Shown here piece after piece: positions 37,558 through 48,937 of a stretch of 64,000 nucleotides of DNA (the first letter of the stretch is position 1; each line of letters opens with the position of its first letter). Origin of the DNA: Betaproteobacteria bacterium (GTDB lineage: Bacteria > Pseudomonadota > Gammaproteobacteria > Burkholderiales > CAIKXV01); assembly GCA_947458265.1 (NCBI GenBank), contig CANGYF010000011.1:62001-126000 (forward strand), read 5' to 3'. A model generated the notes under the pieces. That model made no database searches, had not been told where the DNA came from, and saw nothing but the letters and a program-made list of their open reading frames with translations. The translations under genes were made by a program, and so were the position numbers.

Positions 37558-37926
37558 TCAGCCGTTGGAGGTGCGGGCGGTGATGTCGCCGACCGGGAAG
37601 AAGCAGAGCAGCTTCAGCGTGGTGTCGCCGGTGTTCCGGGTCGCATGCCATTCGCCCGACGGCAGCACGATGGTGTCCCCGGCATTGAGCGGATAGCTGC
37701 CGCTGTCGGCCTCGGTGCAGCCGCTGCCTTCGAGTACGTGGATCACTTCCTCGAAGCCGTCGTGCCGGTGCGGCTTGCGCGGACCGGCGTCCGGCTGGGC
37801 GACCGGGATCTCGACGTAGCGGAGGGTGACGTTGTCGGTGCCCATCGACTGCGAGGCGATCTCGATCGACTTGCGGCCAGGAAGCCCCATCGACTTCGCG
37901 TTGGCCTGGGTGAATACGCGTGCCAT
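37558..37926 (-). CDS. Single-domain cupin
   Basis: A 122-residue cupin_2 barrel. Motif 1 'KPHRHDGFEEVIHVLEG' (residues 51-67) has the two His and the Glu that bind metal, and motif 2 'LPSGEWHATRN' supplies the last His. Such small cupins act as sugar isomerases, mutarotases or dioxygenases. AAGGAGG precedes the ATG. It lies between the hydroxyacid dehydrogenase (13 bp) and the creatininase-type hydrolase (18 bp), so it is part of one operon. Confidence 0.88.
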   Translation of the reverse strand: MARVFTQANAKSMGLPGRKSIEIASQSMGTDNVTLRYVEIPVAQPDAGPRKPHRHDGFEEVIHVLEGSGCTEADSGSYPLNAGDTIVLPSGEWHATRNTGDTTLKLLCFFPVGDITARTSNG

Positions 37927-47176: not shown

Positions 47177-47269
47177 GGCGCCATTTTATCGCCGGCGGGC
47201 CGGCAGCGCGTCGGCAGCATCGGGTGGCGAACCCGGCGGGCCCAAACCGCAGTAAAATCAGCTGCGCAG

Positions 47270-47343
47270 GCGGGTGTAGTTCAATGGTAGAACGAAAGCT
47301 TCCCAAGCTCTAGACGTGGGTTCGATTCCCATCACCCGCTCCA
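47270..47343 (+). tRNA. tRNA-Gly (anticodon CCC)
   Basis: The 74-nt sequence, with CCA encoded, folds as a tRNA: acceptor stem GCGGGTG/CACCCGC, D-loop 'AGTTCAATGGTAGAAC', anticodon loop TTCCCAA and T-arm 'GTGGGTTCGATTCCCAT'. The anticodon CCC reads GGG. The anticodon stem is AAAGC/GCTCT, which leaves an A-C mismatch at the second pair; E. coli has AGAGC/GCTCT there. Confidence 0.95.
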
Positions 47344-47533
47344 GCCTGCCGATGCCGATGCAGCAGGGTCGTGCCCCGGGTGCGACGATGGCCTCCGCCA
47401 CGCTCTGTCGCCGGTTGCCCTGCACCGAAGGATGCATCAGCTCGCGGCTCAGCCAGCCATCGCGCGTCACGCAGGGCTCGATCCTTGCGTAGCTGGAGCG
47501 GATCGGTTCTTCCAGCGGGTCGTTCAGCAGCAT
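47344..47533 (-). pseudogene. Truncated, frameshifted cupin gene remnant abutting tRNA-Gly
   Basis: On the minus strand the frame from ATG 47533 reads 'LLNDPLEEPIRSSYARIEP', then 'RDGWLSRELMHPSVQGNRRQ' and 'SVAEAIVAPGA'. This resembles the N-terminus of small cupins whose next residues are usually a 'LLHRHRQTEE'-type metal motif. The motif 'LLHRHRQ' is indeed present, but in the next frame (47346-47366), after a one-base shift in the G/C run near 47374-47380. The gene then stops exactly at the 3' end of tRNA-Gly (47343); the rest of the barrel is missing. The apparent continuation into tRNA antisense is an artefact. Confidence 0.65.
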
Positions 47534-47683
47534 CGGGGGCCAGTGGAACGCCGGGCGGCGTCGATGTTGCCGCGGCCGCGTCCAGTGCTCCGGATAGAAT
47601 CGGATCGTTCCCTCCACCTGCCGAGCGCCAACGATGCCGGCTTCGCCCATGCCTGCAAACCGGTCGCAGCCCTGGACCGGCCG

Positions 47684-48889
47684 ATGAAGCGCGCCAGCCC
47701 GCAGAAGGTCGCCTGCAGCTTCGCCGCACGGCTGGTCGACTGGCAGCGCATCGCCGGCCGCAGCGGACTGCCCTGGCAGGGCACGCGGGACCCATACCGG
47801 ATCTGGCTGTCCGAGATCATGCTGCAGCAGACGCAGGTGTCCACGGTGATCCCCTACTACCTGCGCTTCCTGGAGCGGTTCCCCGACGTCCAGGCGCTTG
47901 CCGCTGCGCCGCTCGATGACGTGCTCGCTGCGTGGAGCGGGCTCGGCTACTACTCGCGTGCGCGCTGCCTGCATCGTGCCGCCTGCCAGGTGGTGGATGA
48001 GCACAGCGGCATTTTCCCGCGCGAGTTCGCCGCGGTGCTTGCGCTGCCCGGCATCGGGCGTTCGACTGCGGGCGCGATCTGCGCATTCGCGTTCGGCCAG
48101 CGGCATGCCATCCTCGATGGCAACGTCAAGCGGGTGCTCGCGCGCCACGCCGGCATCGAAGGCTGGGCCGGCGATCCGCCGGTGCTGGCTGCGCTGTGGG
48201 CGGAATCGGTCGCGCGCCTGCCGCCTGCGGTGGACGAGGCCGACGCGCCGGGGGTGGACGATCGCGGCGCGCCGGCGGTGGACGAGACCGACGCGCCGGA
48301 CGCAGCCGGTGCCGGGCAGACGGAGATCGGTACCTATACGCAGGCGCTGATGGACCTCGGAGCCGGACCGTGCGCGCGCAGCCGGCCGCGCTGTGGCGAC
48401 TGCCCGGTGTCCACCGACTGCGTCGCCCGGCTGTCCGGCCGGATCGAGGCGATTCCGGCACCGCGGCCGCGGCGCGAGATGCCGCACCGGGCGAGCGCGG
48501 TGTGGCTGCTGCTCGACAGCGAGCGCGGCGTGCTGCTCGAACGGCGGCCTCCCAGCGGCATCTGGGGCGGGCTGTGGAGTCTGCCGCAGGCGATCGATGC
48601 GCAGGTCGAGGCAAGCATCCGTGCGAGCGACGGTGCACTGCAGGCACTGGCGCCGATCGAGCATGCGTTCACGCATTTCCGCCTGCGCATCGAGCCGCTG
48701 CTGGTGCGCATGCACCGGGTGCAGGACGCCGGCGCCGCTCTGCAGGCGCATGATGGCGAGTCCGGCCGTCGCTGGGTTGCGCTCGAGCAGCTGGAGTCGG
48801 TTGCGCTGCCGGCACCGGTCAGGACCCTGCTTGAGACCTTGCGCAACGGCGGAGCCGGGCTGCAGCCTCGCTTGCCCGGCCTTTCGTGA
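47684..48889 (+). CDS. mutY: A/G-specific adenine glycosylase MutY with repeat linker
   Basis: A 401-residue MutY that removes A opposite 8-oxoG. Glu44 in 'SEIMLQQTQV' and Asp145 in 'ILDGNVKRVL' are the catalytic pair, 'LPGIGRSTAGAI' (121-132) is the helix-hairpin-helix, and Cys230, Cys237, Cys240 and Cys246 bind the 4Fe-4S cluster (C-X6-C-X2-C-X5-C). The Nudix-like C-terminal domain follows. Odd is a segment at residues 183-206 made of three 8-residue units (VDEADAPG-like) encoded by a 24-bp tandem repeat, between the HhH and the cluster. The start is ATG 47684; the ORF upstream covers the spacer without coding character. Confidence 0.93.
   Translation: MKRASPQKVACSFAARLVDWQRIAGRSGLPWQGTRDPYRIWLSEIMLQQTQVSTVIPYYLRFLERFPDVQALAAAPLDDVLAAWSGLGYYSRARCLHRAACQVVDEHSGIFPREFAAVLALPGIGRSTAGAICAFAFGQRHAILDGNVKRVLARHAGIEGWAGDPPVLAALWAESVARLPPAVDEADAPGVDDRGAPAVDETDAPDAAGAGQTEIGTYTQALMDLGAGPCARSRPRCGDCPVSTDCVARLSGRIEAIPAPRPRREMPHRASAVWLLLDSERGVLLERRPPSGIWGGLWSLPQAIDAQVEASIRASDGALQALAPIEHAFTHFRLRIEPLLVRMHRVQDAGAALQAHDGESGRRWVALEQLESVALPAPVRTLLETLRNGGAGLQPRLPGLS
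48230..48301 (+). repeat. 24-bp in-frame tandem repeat within mutY
   Basis: Three 24-bp units (48230-48253, 48254-48277, 48278-48301), each starting GTGGACGA and containing GCGCCG, encode VDEADAPG, VDDRGAPA and VDETDAPD. Unit length keeps the frame, so copy number could change without breaking mutY. Confidence 0.9.
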
Positions 48890-48937
48890 GCCGGGCGTTC
48901 CATGAACCTTGAACATTCCACCAGACGGGAGATGACC

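Follow-up and report, generated by a model that had tools for sequence, protein, structure and literature searches.

Bacterial pseudogenes can form by frameshift plus deletion. Elements of the ICEclc type are described as inserting themselves into tRNA-Gly genes, at the last 18 bp (PMC10732049). Both are of relevance for a locus in the 64,000-nucleotide stretch of DNA analysed here (the window, from genome G000), where an earlier note had placed a cupin gene remnant truncated exactly at the 3' end of tRNA-Gly and had suggested a past integration or excision event that removed the rest of the gene. None of the papers found on two of the three subjects asmA, mutY and cupin is, judged by title, about this locus. 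Its features are as follows.

47270..47343, plus strand: tRNA-Gly, anticodon CCC (ARAGORN).
47344..47533, minus strand: cupin pseudogene, N-terminal half, truncated at the tRNA 3' end (translation and comparison with relatives).
47586..47603, plus strand: promoter-like element TGCTCCGGATAGAATCGG between the divergent remnants (putative role).
47634..47687, plus strand: asmA remnant of 17 codons, MPASPMPANRSQPWTGR and stop (read from sequence and compared with relatives).
47684..48889, plus strand: mutY, A/G-specific adenine glycosylase, intact, with HhH-GPD and NUDIX_4 domains.

The Rfam tRNA model matches 47270-47340, and 47343 is the A of the tRNA-Gly CCA. On the minus strand the remnant begins with an ATG at 47533 and reads MLLNDPLEEPIRSSYARIEPCVTRDGWLSRELMHPSVQGNRRQSVAEAIVAPGAR. 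Codon alignment with six intact copies places a one-base deletion near 47369/47370, which shifts the frame to ..TLLHRHRQ just as the earlier note had read it, and cupin homology extends to ~47344; the remnant thus does stop at the last tRNA base, within an uncertainty of a few bases, as about two codons are left past HRHR and the ancestral spacer is unknown. Everything beyond these two codons, plus the spacer, has been lost. Since the remnant alone matches no Pfam model (0 families for both versions submitted), the family call rests on relatives: the N-terminal halves of six relatives' cupins are 59–72% identical to the remnant and continue into full cupins, which confirms the cupin N-terminus recognised earlier. 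The intact copies of G010 (E 1.9e-14, 53.6 bits) and G007 (58.2 bits) lie well above the Cupin_2 cut-off of 27.2 bits. The window copy is homologous to Cupin_2 members and is itself not a functional member; owing to the one-base deletion and the lost 3' part it is not a complete ORF with both cupin motifs. On the strand opposite to mutY, an open frame of 552 codons (window 47258-48916, minus strand) runs antisense through mutY, through the cupin remnant and into the tRNA; gene callers might pick it up, but high G+C content is its likely cause.

The comparison with close relatives proposed by the earlier note covered all 11 genomes of the genus in the collection. An intact cupin (~130 aa) was found beside tRNA-Gly in 6 of the 10 other genomes and was absent in 4, and foreign DNA after the tRNA was found in G007. 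The intact gene, which points at the tRNA, adjoins it in G010, G005, G009 and G001, and lies on split contigs in G004 and G007. Between the tRNA and the last cupin base that aligns there are 28 bases in G010, 155 in G009, 343 in G001, 921 in G005 and 5235 in G004, the last two containing inserts of 0.9 kb and 5.2 kb respectively. From its ORFs, the G005 insert presumably carries a gene for a PEP-CTERM protein; those of the G004 insert (L048 / L171, G004:C82) we take to be a two-component system, a phosphoethanolamine transferase, a PAP2 protein and a diacylglycerol kinase. A wider cupin search gave 17 loci, and tRNA-Gly adjoins the cupin on G010's own contig and not in the other 16. A second tRNA-like match in G009 is tRNA-His. 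By this sequence comparison, the feature at 47344-47533 is a pseudogene whose orthologue is intact at the corresponding place in relatives.

As to substitutions, the remnant carries 3 changes at the 21 columns invariant in the six intact copies, and each intact copy carries 0–2. Its differences overall are still biased to third codon positions. This bias weighs against decay: either the gene began to decay recently, or the substitution pattern does not fully bear the decay out. Judging from the alignment, inactivation of the cupin was probably recent on the genus scale. The missing half has no other copy in the assembly: with the full G010 cupin as query, the window genome returned the remnant and eight weaker matches of 23–33% identity. 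The best of these eight is a separate cupin-like frame of 128 codons at window 37600-37785 (minus strand), which matches the G010 cupin with 32% identity across 62 residues (E 4.2e-7).

The gene on the other side of the promoter-like element has been eroded as well. An asmA of ~800 codons, divergent from the cupin, is present in G010, G007, G005 and G009 (the G010 protein is AsmA, PF05170, E 1.3e-51); it sits between cupin and mutY in G010, G007 and G005, and the G009 contig ends after asmA. In the window its first 14 codons are joined in frame to the last two or three, and the stop of this short frame overlaps the mutY start at 47684 as ATGA, the same overlap that the full asmA has in G007, with identical sequence in G010. 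A protein search, run with no positive control of its own, found no asmA elsewhere in the window genome; the same protein matches G005, G007 and G009 at 54–75%. The promoter-like element is recognisable also in G010, in G007 and, in the absence of the two genes, in G006. The 17-codon frame could, from its arrangement, act as a leader that couples mutY translation to the old asmA promoter. Two deletions therefore flank the old divergent promoter region, and each stops at a conserved neighbour, of which one (the tRNA) is an attachment site in a relative and the other (mutY) is a protein gene. That the junctions are a fault of assembly and do not exist in the organism is extremely improbable. The assembly is a draft in 33 contigs and contigs of G007 break at the same site, but in the window the site is far from the ends of a contig of at least 126 kb. 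The one-base deletion and the conserved-column changes show decay independently of the junction, and an assembly fault would have to account for each of two separate deletions.

We consider decay by spontaneous deletions bounded by selection to be the best explanation for the truncation, and hold it with good though not full confidence. The ancestor would have had, as some relatives still do, a divergent pair between tRNA-Gly(CCC) and mutY, with the cupin towards the tRNA and asmA overlapping mutY. Both genes would have become dispensable in the window lineage; one deletion, of ~0.23 kb if the ancestor resembled G010, would have taken the C-terminal half of the cupin and the spacer up to the tRNA, and another of ~2.3 kb the interior of asmA in frame, so that 17 codons remain and their overlap with the mutY start is kept. 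Any deletion running into the tRNA or mutY would have been selected against, so that the surviving junctions are flush. The intact pair in relatives and both truncations are directly observed; the order of events, the spontaneous mechanism and the selection behind the flush ends are what we infer from them. Since both deletions stop at conserved neighbours and only one of these is an attachment site (in a relative), decay bounded by selection accounts for the locus better than integration does. It should be noted, however, that with an ancestral spacer of ~24–28 bases or more, chance alone would be somewhat unlikely to give a flush junction.

For this reason a deletion linked to an integrase keeps a modest probability, although we think it unlikely: an element would have integrated at the tRNA-Gly 3' end, and either its aberrant excision or a recombination of the tRNA core with a pseudo-site inside the cupin would have removed the C-terminal half and left the junction flush with the tRNA. 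In its favour is the locus in G007. There, contig C778 (L166 1-77) opens with 58 bases unrelated to the locus, followed by TTCCCATCACCCGCTCCA and then by the spacer and the intact cupin. TTCCCATCACCCGCTCCA is the exact sequence of the last 18 tRNA bases without the rest of the tRNA, the next base, C, being shared too (19 in all), and these are also the last 18 bases of the window tRNA-Gly. Contig C346 of the same genome (L167 1-138) has the tRNA followed by other, foreign DNA. Among 100 genomes, 24 have any copy of the 18-mer and G007 alone has two. An element is, as read from these contig ends, integrated at tRNA-Gly in G007, and the genus thus uses the tRNA 3' end for attachment. The body of the element and its integrase were not found in G007, since neither contig reaches more than ~64 bases beyond the site; the element's tRNA-side end, 72 bases long, occurs once in that genome. 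Phage_integrase profile matches in G007 number three. Contigs C422, which ends in tRNA-His-like sequence, and C783, with several ORFs that we take to be recombinase-like, were considered as source of the integrase, and neither is linked to the tRNA-Gly site. The tRNA end is also carried by viral contigs, where 72 stretches match a 20-base version of it; 43 of these are part of a complete tRNA-Gly and 29 are not. One viral contig, L089, has the tRNA-end sequence at both ends, with what is presumably an integrase gene next to the first copy.

The 5.2-kb and 0.9-kb inserts between tRNA and cupin could be counted on the same side, but neither G004 nor G005 has an attachment repeat there (best 12 and 13 of 18), and in G007 the cupin remained whole despite the integration. 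The window genome has one copy of the tRNA end only, a second being absent with up to 3 mismatches allowed. Of the missing cupin half and the tRNA-derived repeat for which the earlier note had proposed to search the genome, neither is present. A profile search with Phage_integrase found nothing on the window contig (C11) and five matches on other contigs. In the intact cupins, the 18 bases leading up to the break position agree with the core at 4 (G010), 4 (G007) and 6 (G004) positions, against background means of 4.7–5.0, and thus show no resemblance to it. Downstream of the tRNA, the best match to its end is 13 of 18 in the window and 10–13 of 18 in 14 related loci, which we take as chance, with no shuffle control. 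Finally, the asmA deletion shows a flush end that arose without a tRNA. Of the integration or excision event suggested earlier, it holds that the cupin was originally complete, reaching further towards the tRNA, and that the tRNA 3' end serves as attachment site in the genus; that such an event made this break does not follow, as the break has no attachment copy, integrase on the contig or core-like sequence, and the mirror deletion on the mutY side stops at a neighbour that is not a tRNA. A combined version, in which a tyrosine integrase would have cut the cupin precisely at the tRNA core without leaving an attachment copy while asmA became a 17-codon leader coupling MutY translation to the old promoter, appears very doubtful to us.

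Gene loss at this locus can be followed further in the genus. In a tree built on two genes only, thiG and trmB, the closest group to the window genome is formed by the four genomes without cupin and asmA (support 0.867). In this sister clade (G006, G003, G008 and G002), which has lost both genes, only a short gap separates the tRNA from mutY. In G003, asmA-upstream sequence is retained (0/300 shuffles reach its score), and in G006 the promoter-like element (3/300); both speak for decay. The spacers of G002 and G008 show no significant match to the window (46/300 and 109/300). This, the two-gene basis of the tree and the use of the tRNA end as attachment site in a relative count somewhat against decay. 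A different element of the form GTATCCTGA is found upstream of mutY in G006, G002, G008 and G003 (L172-L175) and also near mutY in G004; by its position it is possibly a replacement promoter after the loss of asmA and cupin. In G003, tandem repeats of the last eight bases of the tRNA, CCGCTCCA, directly follow the tRNA (L175 2220-2252).

Outside the genus, 15 loci were chosen because tRNA and mutY lay on one contig. Five of them (G055, G037, G023, G044, G035) have asmA between tRNA-Gly and mutY, four (G032, G033, G057 and G025, the last with a partial asmA match) have asmA plus further genes, and in three (G031, G029, G051) mutY comes directly after the tRNA with asmA missing; G059, G046 and G052 have other DNA without an asmA match in between. 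The large tRNA-asmA intervals of G032, G033 and G057 presumably encode a PAS/GGDEF/EAL protein, a cytochrome oxidase cluster and an ABC transporter, and no integrase was noticed there on reading of the ORFs.

Taken together, one tRNA-bounded locus within a genus shows a series from the intact pair through the half-eroded to the absent one. We see it as an ordinary but clear snapshot of gene-pair loss, a clean comparative example and not a new system, and the analysis also documents the use of the tRNA-Gly end as attachment site in a relative. That a truncated gene ends flush with a tRNA does not suffice to prove an integrase, as the same flush end occurs at mutY.

The ICEclc-type elements and the G007 site have in common that the repeat is the last 18 bases of a tRNA-Gly gene, but the ICEclc core is GTCTCGTTTCCCGCTCCA, from a different tRNA-Gly sequence (PMC10732049). 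Moreover, the G007 site has neither an integrase nor an element body linked to it, and the window is without any repeat. With single-domain Cupin_2 proteins (PF07883) the remnant shares the N-terminal region and the first metal-motif residues HRHR, whereas the frameshifted window copy is without most of the cupin barrel. With bacterial pseudogenes made by frameshift and deletion, the locus shares the frameshift, the partial deletion, the changes at conserved columns and the complete loss in a sister clade. It differs from typical cases of this kind in that each of the two eroded genes stops flush against a conserved neighbour, and in that asmA was shortened in frame with its mutY overlap kept.
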